The translations under genes and the position numbers were made by a program. Shown here piece after piece: positions 47,052-53,884 of a DNA stretch of 64,000 nt; the stretch's first letter is position 1, and each line of letters begins with the position of its first letter. The DNA lies in contig JAJRYF010000055.1 of the NCBI GenBank assembly GCA_024275935.1, positions 1 through 64,000 of the forward strand. Direction: 5' to 3'. The notes under the pieces were generated by a model. It was given only the letters and a program-made list of their open reading frames with translations. It did not search any database and had not been told where the DNA came from. This DNA comes from Gammaproteobacteria bacterium (GTDB lineage Bacteria > Pseudomonadota > Gammaproteobacteria > Xanthomonadales > SZUA-36).

Positions 47052-49766
47052 ATGACCAAGCCAGACCATGACCCGAATACCACTCTGTTCCTCGTAGATG
47101 GATCCTCTTATTTGTACCGGGCCTTCCACGCCCTTCCGGCCCTCAACAATAGCGAGGGTGAAGCAACTGGGGCTATCTACGGGGTAGCAAATATGCTGCG
47201 CCGCCTGCTAAAAGAGTTCGACCCAACCCGGGCCGCGGTTATATTTGATGCCAAAGGGAAAACCTTTCGGCACGAAAAATACCCTCTGTACAAAGCCAAT
47301 CGCCCGCCAATGCCAACGGAATTGCGTGAGCAGTTGGAAGGCATAAAAGCCCTGGTTAAAGCCATGGGGTTTCCAGTACTTGAAATTACCGGGGTTGAAG
47401 CTGATGATGTAATCGGCACGCTTTGCCAGCAAGCAGTTAGCCAGGGCCTTCAATGCGTAGTTTCAACCGGTGACAAAGACTTGGCCCAACTGGTTAACTC
47501 ATCGGTGACGCTAATTGATACTATGAAAAACTCCGTTTTGACACCAAGCTCAGTTAAGGAAAAATTCGGTGTCGCGCCACAGCATATTGTCGATTACTTA
47601 GCCCTGATCGGGGATAGCTCGGATAATATTCCCGGGGTCCCTAAAGTGGGGCCAAAAACTGCAGTGAAATGGCTACAAAAATATACCTCAGTAGATGAAA
47701 TCATAAAACACGCCGGGGAAATAACGGGCAAGGTTGGTGAAAATTTAAGAGAATTCCTACCTCAACTGCCACTTTCACGAGAGTTAGCAACCATTAAGCT
47801 GGATGTGCCACTTGAAGCCGGTATAAATGATTTGCAAATGCAGGCCTTAGATAAAGAGCCCTTGGCAGAGCTGCTAAAACGCTATGAATTCCATAGTTGG
47901 TTGCGAGAACTAGGCAGCCCCACCGGCTCCGACCCATCTGCCGACAAACCGACCAAAATCGACTACACCACAATTCTGGATCAGGAGAGTTTAGATTTAT
48001 GGCTGGACAAGCTTGAGTCTGCCGAGCTGTTTGCCTTTGACACCGAGACCACTAGCCTGAACTATATGCAGGCTGAAATTGTTGGTTTGAGCTTCGCTGT
48101 AACTCCTGGTCAAGCCGCCTACCTACCCTTGGCGCACAGCTACCCCGGCTGCCCGCCGCAACTGGACCGGGATACAGTTCTAAAACGCTTCCAGCCATTA
48201 CTGGAAAACCCAAACAAAACCAAGCTTGGGCAACATCTGAAATATGACCGCAATGTGCTGCTTAACTACGGTATTGAGCTAAACGGAATTGCCCACGACA
48301 GCATGTTGGAAAGCTATGTGCTTGATAGTACTGCCGGGCGCCACGATATGGATTCTCTAGCCAACCGGTACCTGGGAGAGGAGACCATTAAGTTTACTGA
48401 TATAGCTGGCAAAGCAGGTAAAAAGCAACTTACATTTGACCAGGTAGAAATTGATAAAGCCAGCCCTTACGCCGCCGAAGATGCGGATATAACCCTCAGA
48501 TTACACCAACATATCTGGCCCAAGCTGGCTGCCCTGCCAGCACTAAAAAAACTCTATCAAGAAGTAGAAATTCCGCTTCTTTCTGTGCTTTCAAAAATGG
48601 AAACCAATGGGGTCTTAATTGATGGCAAGCTCCTCCGCGCTCAAAGTACCGAGCTGGCAAAAAAAATCATGCTCATGGAGCAAACCGCCTATGAGCTCGC
48701 CGGGCACAGCTTTAATTTAGGCTCACCAAAGCAACTACAACACATATTATTTGAAGAGTTAGAACTGCCGATTATTCGCAAAACTCCTAAAGGCCAACCA
48801 TCAACAGCAGAGGATGTACTAACTGAGCTAGGCCACGATTATGCGCTGCCGAAGTTGATCCTTGAATACCGTAGTTTATCCAAGCTGAAGTCTACCTATA
48901 CCGACAAGCTGCCAGGGCGGATAGACCCCAACACGGGCAGGGTGCATACCAGCTACCACCAAGCGGTTGCTGCTACTGGCAGATTATCATCGGCCGACCC
49001 TAACCTGCAAAACATTCCAATCAGAACAGCCGAAGGCAGACGCATTCGTGAAGCCTTTATTGCCCCCCCGGGAAAACTGATTATAGCCTGTGACTACTCC
49101 CAAATTGAGCTACGAATTATGGCGCACTTATCTGCGGATAAAAGCTTGCTCCAAGCCTTTCATAACGATCTGGATATTCATAGTGCCACCGCTGCAGAGG
49201 TTTTTGCGGTGCCAGTTGATGCCGTCAGCTCAAATCAACGGCGCGCAGCCAAGGCCATTAATTTTGGCTTGATGTACGGAATGTCAGCTTTTGGCCTAGC
49301 CAAGCAATTGGAGATTAAGCGCGGCGAGGCGCAGGAATATATTGATACCTACTTTTCCCGTTACCCTGGCGTGTTTGAATACATGGAGCGAACCCGTGAA
49401 CTGGCTCGCGAACAGCAGTATGTTGAAACCCTGTTTGGGCGCCGTCTGTGGCTGCGTGAAATCAACGCCAGCAACCCCATGCGTCGTCAGGCAGCTGAGC
49501 GCGCTGCTATCAACGCCCCAATGCAAGGGACTGCCGCCGATATCATCAAGCGGGCAATGTTAAGCGTAGATCAGTGGATGCAGACGGAAAAACCCGATGC
49601 CCTGATGATAATGCAAGTCCACGACGAACTAGTATTTGAAGTCGCCGAGGAGCAAAGAGATCAATTCACCAAAGAAATAGTCAAGCAAATGGAGTCAGCC
49701 GCAAAGTTAGCCGTGCCACTACTGGTTGATGCCGATTACGGGGCTAACTGGGAAGCCGCCCACTAG
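47052..49766 (+). CDS. polA: DNA polymerase I
   Basis: 904 residues with all three domains: 5'-3' exonuclease (FLVDGSSYLYRAFHAL, GVEADDVIGTL), 3'-5' exonuclease with active FDTETTSLN, and family A polymerase (DYSQIELRIMAHLS, RRAAKAINFGLMYGMS, QVHDELVFEV). The catalytic acids of the proofreading site are retained, unlike some family members. Fills gaps after Okazaki fragment and excision repair. Confidence 0.98.
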   Translation: MTKPDHDPNTTLFLVDGSSYLYRAFHALPALNNSEGEATGAIYGVANMLRRLLKEFDPTRAAVIFDAKGKTFRHEKYPLYKANRPPMPTELREQLEGIKALVKAMGFPVLEITGVEADDVIGTLCQQAVSQGLQCVVSTGDKDLAQLVNSSVTLIDTMKNSVLTPSSVKEKFGVAPQHIVDYLALIGDSSDNIPGVPKVGPKTAVKWLQKYTSVDEIIKHAGEITGKVGENLREFLPQLPLSRELATIKLDVPLEAGINDLQMQALDKEPLAELLKRYEFHSWLRELGSPTGSDPSADKPTKIDYTTILDQESLDLWLDKLESAELFAFDTETTSLNYMQAEIVGLSFAVTPGQAAYLPLAHSYPGCPPQLDRDTVLKRFQPLLENPNKTKLGQHLKYDRNVLLNYGIELNGIAHDSMLESYVLDSTAGRHDMDSLANRYLGEETIKFTDIAGKAGKKQLTFDQVEIDKASPYAAEDADITLRLHQHIWPKLAALPALKKLYQEVEIPLLSVLSKMETNGVLIDGKLLRAQSTELAKKIMLMEQTAYELAGHSFNLGSPKQLQHILFEELELPIIRKTPKGQPSTAEDVLTELGHDYALPKLILEYRSLSKLKSTYTDKLPGRIDPNTGRVHTSYHQAVAATGRLSSADPNLQNIPIRTAEGRRIREAFIAPPGKLIIACDYSQIELRIMAHLSADKSLLQAFHNDLDIHSATAAEVFAVPVDAVSSNQRRAAKAINFGLMYGMSAFGLAKQLEIKRGEAQEYIDTYFSRYPGVFEYMERTRELAREQQYVETLFGRRLWLREINASNPMRRQAAERAAINAPMQGTAADIIKRAMLSVDQWMQTEKPDALMIMQVHDELVFEVAEEQRDQFTKEIVKQMESAAKLAVPLLVDADYGANWEAAH

Positions 49767-49794
49767 CTCGTATCGCTCACCAAACTAGCGAGCC

Positions 49795-49810
49795 CTCGCC
49801 ACCCGGCGAG
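49795..49810. other. hairpin after polA
   Basis: CTCGCC-ACCC-GGCGAG is a perfect 6-bp stem 29 bases past the polA stop, preceded by a second small repeat (TCGCT/AGCGA). No T-run follows, so it may aid rather than be a terminator between convergent genes. Confidence 0.45.
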
Positions 49811-49838
49811 AAATGCTGGCTGGATCAAATAAAAACCT

Positions 49839-50189
49839 TTACTTAATCAGGCGTAGCGCGAAGGGCACTCTAAATGGCTTGCCGTTTGAAGCGGCAATCG
49901 CGCCCATAATACAAAACACCAGATGAATGATAGCTATAGCCATTATAACCACAACCCCAATCACCACAATTATTAACAGCAGTCCGGCAAAATATACGAT
50001 AATCGCCGTAATCGACCAGTTAAGGGCTTCTTTTGCCTGATCTTTAATATAGGCGTCATCTTGCTTTAATAAATACAGGATAAGCCCTGGAATAAAGCCA
50101 AAAAATATCGTCCCAATCCATACCAACAGAGCCATATTCTTTGAATCCTGGCTGGTTTCCTGAACTTCGTTATTCGCCTCTTCGCTCAT
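49839..50189 (-). CDS. DUF4870 family membrane protein
   Basis: 116 residues. Short acidic N-terminus, then three hydrophobic segments (about 20-38, 57-77, 78-98) with the KEALNWSITAIIVYF phrase typical of DUF4870. An inner-membrane protein of unknown role. The start is ATG 50189, with AAAGAG upstream; an upstream GTG-type extension carries no ribosome-binding site. Confidence 0.82.
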   Translation of the reverse strand: MSEEANNEVQETSQDSKNMALLVWIGTIFFGFIPGLILYLLKQDDAYIKDQAKEALNWSITAIIVYFAGLLLIIVVIGVVVIMAIAIIHLVFCIMGAIAASNGKPFRVPFALRLIK

Positions 50190-50400
50190 AATTGTTCTCT
50201 TTATTAAAAGCCTAGTTAAAATATCAAACAGGAGACAGCAGTATAGCAGAGCCGGTGAATTAAACCTCACCGCATCCGCAGGACATGGGGTAATTTCCGA
50301 GCTCACACAAATCCAAAGCTTACGATGCTTCCGCTGCGCTTGACAGCACCCTGCGAAACCTTGGCTCCTTGGGCAGAGTGGGTTGGGTTCGAGGGCATGG
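50190..50400. other. intergenic region upstream of the DUF4870 gene, start of repeat mosaic
   Basis: No gene is visible. A 13-base phrase GGTTGGGTTCGAG occurs at 50381-50393 and again at 50525-50537, so the duplicated unit begins here. A promoter for the DUF4870 gene must lie within, but I see no convincing boxes. Confidence 0.45.
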
Positions 50401-50401
50401 C

Positions 50402-50460
50402 GCTGGACTGAGGCTCATAGCAACGCTATGGGCCGAAGGAAGCTCAAGCCCAGAGGCTCC
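50402..50460. repeat. 59-bp direct repeat, copy 1
   Basis: 58 of 59 bases match 50572-50630, exactly 170 bases downstream. Each copy contains the imperfect palindrome GGCTCATAGC-AAC-GCTATGGGCC. It is not coding in a way I can support. Confidence 0.85.
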
Positions 50461-50510
50461 AAACCACGCCAATCTCTAACCCGCTCGACACCAATAGAAT
50501 TGCAAACCCT

Positions 50511-50671
50511 GGTTTGTCTTTTGGGGTTGGGTTCGAGAAGCTGGCGCCGGGCTGGAGCTTCTGGGCGCCGGGCTGGACTGAGGCTCATAGCAACGCTATG
50601 GGCCGAAGGAAGCCCAAGCCCAGAGGCTCCAGAACCAGCCAGATTCCGGAACCAGCCCCAAAAGACAAACC
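50511..50671. repeat. inverted repeat arms spanning the second copy
   Basis: GGTTTGTCTTTTGGGG (50511-50526) is the exact reverse complement of 50656-50671. Inside, GGAGCTTCTGGGC (50554-50566) is a 12/13 inverted match to 50619-50631. Such nested arms resemble REP/BIME or MITE-like elements. Confidence 0.7.
50572..50630. repeat. 59-bp direct repeat, copy 2
   Basis: Second copy of the unit at 50402-50460 with one C/T difference. It lies between the inverted arms described separately. Confidence 0.85.
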
Positions 50672-50679
50672 TAAAAACC

Positions 50680-50708
50680 AAAAAAAGCCCCGAACAAATG
50701 TCCGGGGC
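50680..50708 (-). terminator. terminator of the candidate small RNA
   Basis: GCCCCG and CGGGGC form the base of a stem that extends through GACA/TGTT, followed by seven T on the minus strand. It lies about 195 bases past the tsaC stop, with the candidate RNA in between. Confidence 0.85.
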
Positions 50709-50833
50709 CAATCTGCAGTTTGGTCGTTGGGGTACAGACCAAACCCGTATTCGATCCGTTGAGGGAGGATAACGGATCTATCGTCACTAGGAGTGACAGT
50801 AATTAAGACTATGGACGGTTTAATTAGTTCAAA
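50680..50833 (-). ncRNA. candidate structured small RNA, about 154 nt
   Basis: On the minus strand there are four successive inverted repeats before a strong terminator: TAATTAA (50820-50826 with 50800-50806), GTCACT-N3-AGTGAC (50783-50797), GATCCGTT-N10-AACGGATC (50753-50778) and GTTTGGTC-N11-GACCAAAC (50718-50744). The loops are C-rich on this strand (ATCCTCCCTC, TGTACCCCAAC), so they could pair with ribosome-binding sites. A promoter-like pair sits just upstream. The gene order (near polA) recalls Spot 42 and ErsA, but I see no sequence match to them. On the plus strand the loops would carry GGA, as in CsrB-type RNAs, but no terminator is seen that way. Confidence 0.6.
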
Positions 50834-50839
50834 GAAATA

Positions 50840-50869
50840 TATATATTTTCTTATAAAGTCCGCACTCAA
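50840..50869 (-). promoter_or_regulatory. candidate promoter of the small RNA
   Basis: TTGAGT (50864-50869), an 18-base spacer, then TATATA (50840-50845) within an AT-rich palindrome. The predicted start near 50833 lies just upstream of the first hairpin. Confidence 0.5.
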
Positions 50870-50904
50870 CAGGGTGTATCTTTTGAAATCAATCTGTTAC
50901 AAGT

Positions 50905-51471
50905 TTAGCGAATTACAGTATCGCTGCGTAGATCCCTAATTGTACTGACAGACTGCTGGCCGCCAAGCTCCCCTGACAGATAACCCGCCAACTCTGGGCT
51001 GGAAAAATAACTGACTAATTGTTGCTGATTTAGTGCTGGTGATTGCCCGGAAGGGTTGGCGCTAGTTGATACCAGCGGCTGGTTAAATGCTCTGCATAAT
51101 CGCCGGGTAAGTGGGTTATCGCTCACTCTTACCGCCAGAGTATCGTGCTTGCCGGTCAACCATCCCGGGGTGCCTTTTGCGGCCGGAAATAACCAGGTTA
51201 CAGGTCCTGGCCAGCTTGCTAGGGCACGGCCCATTTCACACACACTGACCGGCGCCAACAAACCCTGAAACTGTTCAAAATCCGCAGCCACCAAAATCAG
51301 GCCCTGTTCAACCGAGCGCTGCTTGATCTTGAGTAGTTTGTTAACTGCGGCCTGGTTGTTGGGGTCACATCCCAGGCCCCATACTGCCTCTGTAGGCCAG
51401 GCAATAACTTCCCCTGCAAGTAATGCCGCTACCGCGGCATCGGTACTTAGCTCTGGCAGCCGGGCATTCAT
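50905..51471 (-). CDS. tsaC: threonylcarbamoyl-AMP synthase
   Basis: 188 residues of the YrdC/Sua5 family; makes the TC-AMP used for the t6A37 modification of tRNA. Motifs are IAWPTEAVWGLGCDP, KQRSVEQGLIL and SANPSGQSPA. It lacks the Sua5 C-terminal domain, so TsaC is the fitting name. ATG follows the topA stop by one base (TGAAATG), so translation is coupled. Confidence 0.95.
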   Translation of the reverse strand: MNARLPELSTDAAVAALLAGEVIAWPTEAVWGLGCDPNNQAAVNKLLKIKQRSVEQGLILVAADFEQFQGLLAPVSVCEMGRALASWPGPVTWLFPAAKGTPGWLTGKHDTLAVRVSDNPLTRRLCRAFNQPLVSTSANPSGQSPALNQQQLVSYFSSPELAGYLSGELGGQQSVSTIRDLRSDTVIR

Positions 51472-51472
51472 T

Positions 51473-53884
51473 TCAACTGCTGGTTTTAGCTGCTACTTTT
51501 TTCTTGCTGGCCTTCTTCTTACTACGTTTTTTCTTGCTAGCCTTTTTCTTGCTGCGTTTTTTCTTCGCCGCTTTTTTCTTGCCGGTCTTTTTCTTTTTGC
51601 CTTTTTTGTCAGGCGCCGCTTCCAGTAACTTCAACATATCTTCCAGCGACAAGGATTCCCACTCAACATCTTTGGCAATTCTGGCATTCTTGTTCCCGTC
51701 GGTAACAAAGGGCCCCCAGCGGCCTTTAATAATCTGAATTTCTCCCATTGGAGTATCCGGAATAGTTTTAAGAATCTTGGCCAAATCAGCAGCTTTTTTA
51801 GCCGCAATCAGCTCCAGAGCACGGGGTAATTCTACCGTGTAAGGGTCGTCTTCTTTAAGCGATACAAATTTGCTGGCATAGCGAATATATGGCCCAAAAC
51901 GGCCAATGCTGGTAGAGACTTTTTCGCCATCCTCGGTTTCACCCAACTGCCGTGGTAACTTAAATAGCTCTAGAGCCTCATCAAAACTAATCGAGCTAAG
52001 CCGCTGCCCCGGGCGCAAACCTGCAAATTTAGGCTTACCTTCATCCTCAGCTGTACCAATTTGTGCGTATGGCCCATAACGCCCCAAGCGCACAGACAAC
52101 TCCAGGCCAGTTGCTGGGTCTTTACCCAAAACTCGCTTATGGCGAGCTTCATCGCGAGATACGGTTTCTTCCTTATCCTTGACCCTGGCAATGAACGGTT
52201 CCCAGAAGCTGCGCAACAGGGGAACCCAGTCTTTCTCTCCCCGCGAGACTGCATCCAGATTATCTTCCAGACGGGCCGTAAATTCATAATCCACATAACG
52301 CTCAAAGTGCTTGGAAAGAAAGTTGGCAACCACAATTCCGGTATCGGTAGGATGGAAGCGTTTGCGATCCAACATTACATAGTCACGATTTACCAGCGTG
52401 GAAATAATATTAGCGTAAGTGGAAGGCCTGCCAATCCCGTACTCTTCCAGCACTTTAACCAGGCTGGCTTCAGAATAGCGTGGCGGTGGGTCGGTAAAAT
52501 GTTGCTCAGCGCGAATTTCTTGCAGCGGCACCAATTCACCCTCCACCAATTCCGGCAGGCGTTTTTCGGCCTTTTTATCAGTGCCCGGACGGCTTTCTTC
52601 GTAGACCGCTAAAAACCCAGGACGCGCAACAGTAGAACCGGTGGCGCGAAACGTTGCCCCATCAAGATCAAACTCAGCTGCAACCAGATGCATAAGCGCC
52701 GGAATCATCTGACAAGCCATGGTCCGTTGCCAGATTAATGTATATAGCTTGTGTTGCTCTTCATTCAAATAAGGCTTCACACGGTCAGGGGTTAGCGCCG
52801 CCGAGGTCACACGGATCGCCTCATGCGCTTCCTGAGCGTTTTTAGACTTGGTTTTATAAGTGTTTGGCACCTCGGGGATTTGATCTGCCCCAAACTGCTG
52901 ACTAATCTGTTGCCGAATATCCACCAGGGCATCTGCCGACAAGGCTACTGAGTCGGTACGCATATAGGTAATCAACCCCTGTGTTTCTCCGCTAATTGCA
53001 ATACCTTCGTACAACTTTTGAGCAGTGCGCATGGTTCTTTGGGCGGTAAAGCCAATTTTTCTGGCAGCATCTTGCTGCATGGTTGAGGTTATAAACGGTG
53101 CTGCCGGTCGCCGTTGGCGCTCTTTGCGGGTAATTCTGGCAACCTGCATTTTGTCACTGGCACTATTAGCTAGCCGCTCACGGATTGCCAGAGCCTGATC
53201 AGTATTGTTGATATCGAACTTTTTGACTTTATCGCCATCAAGAATATCTAAATTGGCGGTAAATGCGCTACCGTCTTTAACCAAATCAGCTTCCAGCGTC
53301 CAGAATTCTTGTGGATTAAAAGCATCTATCTCAGCTTCGCGCTCCACAATCAGGCGTAATGCTGGTGACTGTACCCGACCTGCAGATAGCCCAGGACTAA
53401 CCTTGCGCCACAGCAAGGGCGATAAACTAAACCCTACCAGACGATCCAGTGCCCGCCGTGCTTGCTGGGCATTTATCAGGTTCATTTCCAGATCACGCGG
53501 ATTAGCAACCGCCTCCTGAATGGCTTTTTTAGTAATCTCTGAAAACACCACCCGGTAAAGCTCGCGACCCTCAAGCAGACCTTTATCGCGTAATATTTCG
53601 GCAACATGCCAGGAAATAGCCTCTCCTTCGCGATCTAAATCCGTAGCCAGATAAATAGCCTCGGCCTTTTTGGCCTCGCGGACTATGGCATCTATGTTTT
53701 TCTTGCTACGGTCGATCAGGCGATAATGCATTTTAAAATCTGCATCGGTCTCAATCGCGCCCTCACCCTTGATGAGATCACGGACATGCCCAAAGGAGGC
53801 CAAAACTTTAAAGTCCTTGCCTAGGTATTTATTAATGGTAGAGGCCTTGGCAGGCGACTCTACAATCAGTAGATTTTTTGCCAT
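51473..53884 (-). CDS. topA: DNA topoisomerase I
   Basis: 803-residue type IA enzyme that relaxes negative supercoils. The N-terminal Toprim domain has LLIVESPAKA and DLDREGEAI. The catalytic Tyr is in GLITYMRTDS. The C-terminus has glycine-rich topoisomerase repeats (GRYGPYAQIG, GRFGPYIRYA, GRWGPFVTDG) and no zinc-finger Cys clusters, unlike E. coli. The last ~45 residues are a lysine-rich tail with a repeated KKKRSKKKAS unit. Confidence 0.96.
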   Translation of the reverse strand: MAKNLLIVESPAKASTINKYLGKDFKVLASFGHVRDLIKGEGAIETDADFKMHYRLIDRSKKNIDAIVREAKKAEAIYLATDLDREGEAISWHVAEILRDKGLLEGRELYRVVFSEITKKAIQEAVANPRDLEMNLINAQQARRALDRLVGFSLSPLLWRKVSPGLSAGRVQSPALRLIVEREAEIDAFNPQEFWTLEADLVKDGSAFTANLDILDGDKVKKFDINNTDQALAIRERLANSASDKMQVARITRKERQRRPAAPFITSTMQQDAARKIGFTAQRTMRTAQKLYEGIAISGETQGLITYMRTDSVALSADALVDIRQQISQQFGADQIPEVPNTYKTKSKNAQEAHEAIRVTSAALTPDRVKPYLNEEQHKLYTLIWQRTMACQMIPALMHLVAAEFDLDGATFRATGSTVARPGFLAVYEESRPGTDKKAEKRLPELVEGELVPLQEIRAEQHFTDPPPRYSEASLVKVLEEYGIGRPSTYANIISTLVNRDYVMLDRKRFHPTDTGIVVANFLSKHFERYVDYEFTARLEDNLDAVSRGEKDWVPLLRSFWEPFIARVKDKEETVSRDEARHKRVLGKDPATGLELSVRLGRYGPYAQIGTAEDEGKPKFAGLRPGQRLSSISFDEALELFKLPRQLGETEDGEKVSTSIGRFGPYIRYASKFVSLKEDDPYTVELPRALELIAAKKAADLAKILKTIPDTPMGEIQIIKGRWGPFVTDGNKNARIAKDVEWESLSLEDMLKLLEAAPDKKGKKKKTGKKKAAKKKRSKKKASKKKRSKKKASKKKVAAKTSS

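Follow-up and report, generated by a model that had tools for sequence, protein, structure and literature searches.

A predicted polA-linked small RNA with C-rich loops and a putative RpoE-type promoter, apparently related to sX13 and anti-hemB

Introduction

The small RNA (sRNA) sX13 has been reported as exclusive to the Xanthomonadaceae, always lying downstream of polA and displaying three C-rich loops (PMC3771888). It works without Hfq, its repression requires both the C-rich loops and G-rich motifs in the target, and hfq itself is among its targets; sX13 also accumulates to higher levels in the presence of salt and at 37 degrees (PMC3771888). In Alphaproteobacteria, the alpha-r7 sRNAs likewise belong to the polA locus and carry three stem-loops with C-rich motifs, and the authors of the sX13 study asked whether other polA loci encode similar sRNAs (PMC3771888).

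Spot 42 (spf) of E. coli is encoded just 3′ of polA. ErsA of Pseudomonas aeruginosa we take to be linked to polA as well. ErsA depends on sigma22/AlgU (PMC7565897), and Spot 42 is Hfq-dependent and acts in carbon metabolism (PMC3771888). Rfam holds separate families for sX13 (RF02232) and for the anti-hemB RNA of Burkholderia (RF02837). Our literature search found no paper naming sX13 and anti-hemB together and none connecting RpoE with sX13.

Here, we analysed a 64,000-nt stretch of a gammaproteobacterial genome (GCA_024275935.1, contig JAJRYF010000055.1, positions 1 to 64,000), hereafter the window, in which a first-pass annotation had proposed an sRNA at 50680-50869. We consider it likely that this locus is the gene of a trans-acting sRNA of ~119 nt with an RpoE-type promoter, seeds in C-rich loops, and a polA-fixed ancestry shared with sX13 and anti-hemB.

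Results

The minus strand of 50798-50680 is predicted to encode an RNA of ~119 nt, its start placed from the promoter and the homologues, which consists of three hairpins followed by a terminator hairpin with seven T. Its minimum free energy was -48.0, compared to -29.7 ± 3.4 for shuffled sequences (z -5.45), and none of 200 shuffles was equally stable. The four hairpins that the first-pass annotation had described were all present, on the minus strand, and folded beyond chance in the interval then given as well. The span of that interval needed correction, as it extended ~70 nt too far upstream: 50799-50869 is the promoter region before the predicted start and lies outside the RNA. Folding of both strands, which had been suggested as a check, favored the minus strand (z -4.21 versus -2.87 on the plus strand for 50680-50869).

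Stem-loop 1 (50782-50798, minus strand) pairs GTCAC with GTGAC in 7 bp including flanks, supported by the fold and by covariation, and has a loop CCU that differs among lineages. Stem-loop 2 (50753-50778, minus strand) folds as GATCCGTT-ATCCTCCCTC-AACGGATC and exposes the loop AUCCUCCCUC (50770-50761), whose core CCUCCCU is conserved in the alignments. Stem-loop 3 (50717-50745, minus strand) folds as GGTTTGGTC-TGTACCCCAAC-GACCAAACT, with the conserved core CCCC in its loop UGUACCCCAAC (50736-50726). The predicted RNA ends in an intrinsic terminator whose GC-rich stem of 10 bp is followed by T7 (50680-50709), and a terminator scan found a matching terminator on the minus strand only. Transcription of 50798-50680 is thereby predicted from the sequence, and the hairpins very probably mark a real sRNA gene.

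The terminator agreed with the proposal that the RNA has its own promoter and terminator, and the candidate promoter is probably of another kind than sigma-70. A sigma-70 scan gave no fitting promoter upstream of the RNA, its single match lying within tsaC. Instead, the window carries GAACTA-N16-TCTTA (50830-50804, minus strand), a near-match to a sigmaE-type promoter comprising a -35-like element GAACTA (50825-50830; consensus GAACTT), a spacer of 16, and a -10-like element TCTTA (50804-50808) whose position is conserved in homologues. Most homologues have GAACTT or a near variant upstream of the RNA, then 16-17 nt, then TC(T/A/C)NA. We read this motif as the sigmaE/AlgU-type consensus, which we take to be GAACTT-N16/17-TCNNA.

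A regular expression for this promoter type, composed after the order-level sequences had been read, matched 36 of 50 upstream regions, whereas 200 dinucleotide shuffles averaged 0.9 matches and reached 4 at most. In the class-level set, which came later, the unaltered expression matched 14 of 35 regions against 0.4 expected (maximum 3), and a looser expression matched 24 of 35 against 1.4 expected (maximum 6). With its one mismatch in the -35 element, the window's own motif is missed by the strict expression but matched by the looser form. The genome encodes Hfq and also RpoE (322 bits, above the NCBIfam cut-off), and, judging by the motif, the sRNA promoter is most likely RpoE-dependent.

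As for the surrounding genes, identified with Pfam, tsaC/sua5 (50905-51471, minus strand) lies upstream of the sRNA and DUF4870 (49839-50189, minus strand) separates it from polA, the gene for DNA polymerase I (47052-49766, plus strand); DUF2782 is also among the neighbors. The sRNA is therefore convergent with polA, lying ~0.9 kb beyond its 3′ end and behind DUF4870. In most homologous loci, polA is codirectional and immediately upstream.

We found copies by BLASTN with 76-79% identity in three sister species of the genus, located downstream of tsaC and hemF on the polA side. In the sister alignment, the loops CCCTCCCTC and GTCCCCCAAC were unchanged and the terminator stem was altered on both sides. 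DNA searches past the genus returned mainly terminator look-alikes, which were discarded, and more distant relatives were sought with covariance models. The first model (R1), built from five sequences, gave 16 strong matches (E ≤ 1.1e-4) in the 39 genomes of the family, all 16 of them beside polA and/or hemF; we discarded R1 matches with E > 1e-3, none of which lay near polA. Because covariance models carry no gene information, this linkage is independent of the models. At E ≤ 0.01, an RNA-only model trained on the window's family alone (R2) had matches in 85 of the 399 order-level genomes, and at most of these loci polA lay immediately upstream in the same direction. A third model (R3), built from 54 sequences, matched 106 of 369 genomes of the class at E ≤ 1e-3 and 21 of the 39 family genomes at E ≤ 3e-9. 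Outside the order, polA lay within the ~1.5 kb flank at 20 of the 28 best class-level loci. The window's own matches at 50680-50798 (minus strand; E 4.3e-38 with R1, 4.7e-20 with R2, and 3.8e-17 with R3) are to be read as those of a sequence that belonged to all three training sets.

Some matches departed from this arrangement. Weak order-level matches at three loci (L109, L114, and L115) were unlike the RNA, that at L109 overlapping a tRNA, and were rejected. Two clear homologues (L079 and L080) and one likely homologue (L113) came from loci without polA, and the RNA gene seems to have relocated in these lineages. L113 shows the RNA architecture away from polA; we kept it as a homologue, although its assignment is doubtful. 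Among family members without a clear match, polA could be located in 17 of 18. The 16 loci reaching the 3′ side of polA held no trace of the RNA, with a sole sub-threshold match of 9.1 bits, and the gap was either occupied by other open frames or had closed up against hemF. This pattern suggests that the RNA was lost or moved as a whole unit in such genomes and was not left as a decayed copy.

Covariation supported the predicted structure at each level. In the order-wide alignment of 50 distinct sequences, 91.4% of cells paired, 28 of 29 base pairs had changed on both sides, and the covariation score was 0.662, compared to 0.238 for shuffled alignments and at most 0.152 for slid partners. The class-wide set gave 93.4% paired cells, again 28 of 29 pairs, and a score of 0.735 versus 0.202 (shuffled) and at most 0.117 (slid), and the window's family alone had double changes in 19 pairs. 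Stem-loop 2 stood at 98.5% of cells paired in the order-wide alignment, with compensatory changes in 7 of 7 pairs. Since RNAalifold placed stems 1 and 3 wrongly on MAFFT alignments, we used alignments fitted to the model, which favors the structure; the gap to both the shuffled and the slid controls is too wide for the fitting to explain the covariation. The first-pass annotation had named covariance in relatives as a check and loss of the stems in homologous intergenic regions as evidence against an sRNA. Wherever the RNA was found, its stems were kept by compensatory change, which argues that the RNA structure is under selection.

Scanning the whole window with Rfam at the gathering cut-offs gave no match. 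The sX13 model had no match up to E 10 in 50600-50950, where its gathering threshold of 50 bits was not reached. The best sub-threshold match in the region was to anti-hemB, at 29.5 bits (E 3.9e-5; cut-off 49.5), so the Rfam scan that had also been recommended yielded a lead and no assignment. This model has 81 positions and begins at the CCUCCCU hairpin; it aligns that loop and the terminator of the window RNA, and stem 1 is not described by it. R2, which was not trained on sX13, matched two loci that Rfam confirms as sX13 (L105 and L106), in the same position and on the same strand, with E 7.6e-7 in G356 and 1.6e-6 in G328. Matches of R3 coincided with Rfam anti-hemB at two class-level loci with polA upstream, which score above the anti-hemB cut-off (L141, 57.9 bits; L138, 56.4 bits). 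The window RNA thus appears to be a diverged relative of sX13 and anti-hemB and no member of either as Rfam defines them, because it scores below both cut-offs.

The likeness to sX13 extends to length (115 versus ~119 nt), three stem-loops, the terminator, the 3′ side of polA, and covariance-model homology. It also includes C-rich loops, which in the window RNA are loops 2 and 3, with loop 1 only weakly so (CCU). In contrast to sX13, the window RNA occurs outside the Xanthomonadaceae, is unmatched by the Rfam model, lies convergent with polA behind DUF4870, and has no C runs in loop 1 or the terminator loop. The alpha-r7 sRNAs resemble it in locus, three stem-loops, and C-rich motifs, by description only (PMC3771888). 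We also considered PmaR of Agrobacterium, which has a C-rich loop, and rejected it as another family, since it is a single spoon-like hairpin limited to Agrobacterium and near relatives.

Discussion

We propose that envelope or general stress would activate RpoE, and that a sigmaE/RpoE-type sigma factor would transcribe the RNA from its own promoter to the intrinsic terminator, causing the RNA to accumulate. The rigid apical loops of stem-loops 2 and 3 would then present the seeds CCUCCCU and UCCCC/CCCCAA, which would pair with G-rich sequence at or near ribosome-binding sites and lower the translation of several mRNAs. Seed function and targets are carried over here from sX13 and from loop conservation, and we infer them on that basis. 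The earlier suggestion of an independent sRNA with loops suited to ribosome-binding regions gains support from covariation, the conserved C-rich loops, and homology to sX13, and these conserved loops could mask G-rich or Shine-Dalgarno sequences. Neither the relation to sX13 nor the sigmaE-type promoter had been recognized.

Only weak target leads came from searching for complements of loop 2, 8 and 7 nt long. No GAGGGAGG-N3-10-ATG site occurs in this genome, and AGGGAGG-N4-10-ATG occurs at 14 sites versus 1 for a reversed-pattern control. Ordinary GGAGG-type ribosome sites alone could yield those 14 sites. The leaders bearing AGGGAGG include those of products that we read by eye as MraY, a cytochrome oxidase subunit, and MoaD. 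The link between sX13 and hfq may not have carried over, because the hfq leader in this genome has no GGGG near its start codon.

How the RNA is transcribed is the point on which another account weighs most. A real sX13-type sRNA could be driven by sigma70 or by another extracytoplasmic function (ECF) sigma factor in place of RpoE. The window's -35 element has a mismatch, several homologues deviate from the motif, AAC-type -35 boxes are common to ECF sigma factors, and the RpoE model has three additional matches in the genome, all weaker. We nevertheless regard this as rather unlikely in view of the enrichment of the motif over shuffles, its conserved spacing, and the absence of a fitting site in the sigma70 scan. 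The hairpins might also be the 3′ untranslated region or terminator of tsaC, or a folded spacer with neither its own promoter nor a function in trans, given that they lie on the same strand 106 nt downstream of the tsaC stop and that the terminator could serve tsaC. This is very improbable, as relatives have hemF, polA, or another gene upstream and yet the RNA and promoter motif are constant, loop conservation exceeds what a terminator needs, and sX13 is an expressed sRNA (PMC3771888). Least plausible, to the point of being nearly negligible, is a functional plus strand, whose loops GAGGGAGGAU and GUUGGGGUACA could bind CsrA/RsmA through GGA. One of these loops does hold GGA, but loop 3 does not, the plus strand folds more weakly, the T-run of the terminator and the promoter motif belong to the minus strand only, and the Rfam homologues sX13 and anti-hemB are read in the minus-strand sense.

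The location recalls Spot 42 and ErsA, and the RNA might be a local form of one of them that acts through an Hfq-dependent single-stranded seed. It shares their side of polA, ErsA is likewise sigma22-dependent (PMC7565897), and, within the 3 kb of the E. coli polA-yihA region, R3 scores highest on Spot 42 itself (13 bits, E 0.005). However, 13 bits falls short of genome-wide significance, the Rfam scan gave no Spot 42 match at E ≤ 10, and the conserved features are hairpin loops rather than a single-stranded seed. For ErsA, the comparison was made at genome level: in G559, a Pseudomonas-like genome that bears PrrF, R3 had no match at E ≤ 1e-3. Such an identity is therefore improbable, in keeping with the first-pass view that the RNA differs from Spot 42/ErsA.

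Returning to the sX13-type sRNA with an RpoE-type promoter, we lean, with some reserve, towards viewing sX13, anti-hemB, and the window RNA as branches of one ancient polA-anchored sigmaE sRNA family across much of the Gammaproteobacteria (including Burkholderiales), with the RNA present in places as two to four copies in tandem. Spot 42 and ErsA may be distantly diverged cousins occupying this locus in other species. An ancestral sRNA would have become fixed beside polA in a forebear of much of the class, sX13 and anti-hemB being two of its branches. Our comparisons indicate a polA-linked RNA with C-rich loops, usually behind a promoter of the stress-sigma-factor type, in many gammaproteobacterial families. 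This would tie together two separately named Rfam families, add RpoE as a candidate regulator of sX13-type RNA, and answer the question about other polA loci (PMC3771888) in the affirmative for much of the class. If true, a stress-induced RNA with generic seeds against G-rich leaders would be the gammaproteobacterial counterpart to the C-rich-loop sRNAs of other phyla.

Several loci showed additional features. Clusters of two to four neighboring RNA copies occurred at L143 (G567:C33:13150-13901), G674:C8:6559-7491, L137, and L160; those at L137, L143, and L160 are near polA, with promoter-like motifs before the extra copies as well. At L152, where polA was not found, a 6S RNA (558-738) lies ~0.8 kb from an sRNA copy. 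The gene order at 47052-51471 of the window departs from that of its sisters. The sisters have hemF between tsaC and the sRNA, and this gene is absent from the window. DUF4870 lies between polA and the sRNA here but was not found there in sisters with loci extending to polA, and the RNA and polA converge in the window, in contrast to the codirectional arrangement in most of the order. Two 79-nt direct repeats, 89% identical and 170 nt apart, occupy 50380-50641 and share the exact core GAGGCTCATAGCAACGCTATGGGCCGAAGGAAG; they are perhaps a genus-specific mobile or REP-like repeat. A similar core adjoins the sRNA in the sister loci L039 and L038. The repeats, together with inverted arms of 25 nt (50511-50535 and 50647-50671), lie directly downstream of the sRNA. 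Finally, at 51473-51620 the TopA end carries a lysine-rich repeat tail, KKKRSKKKASKKKRSKKK.
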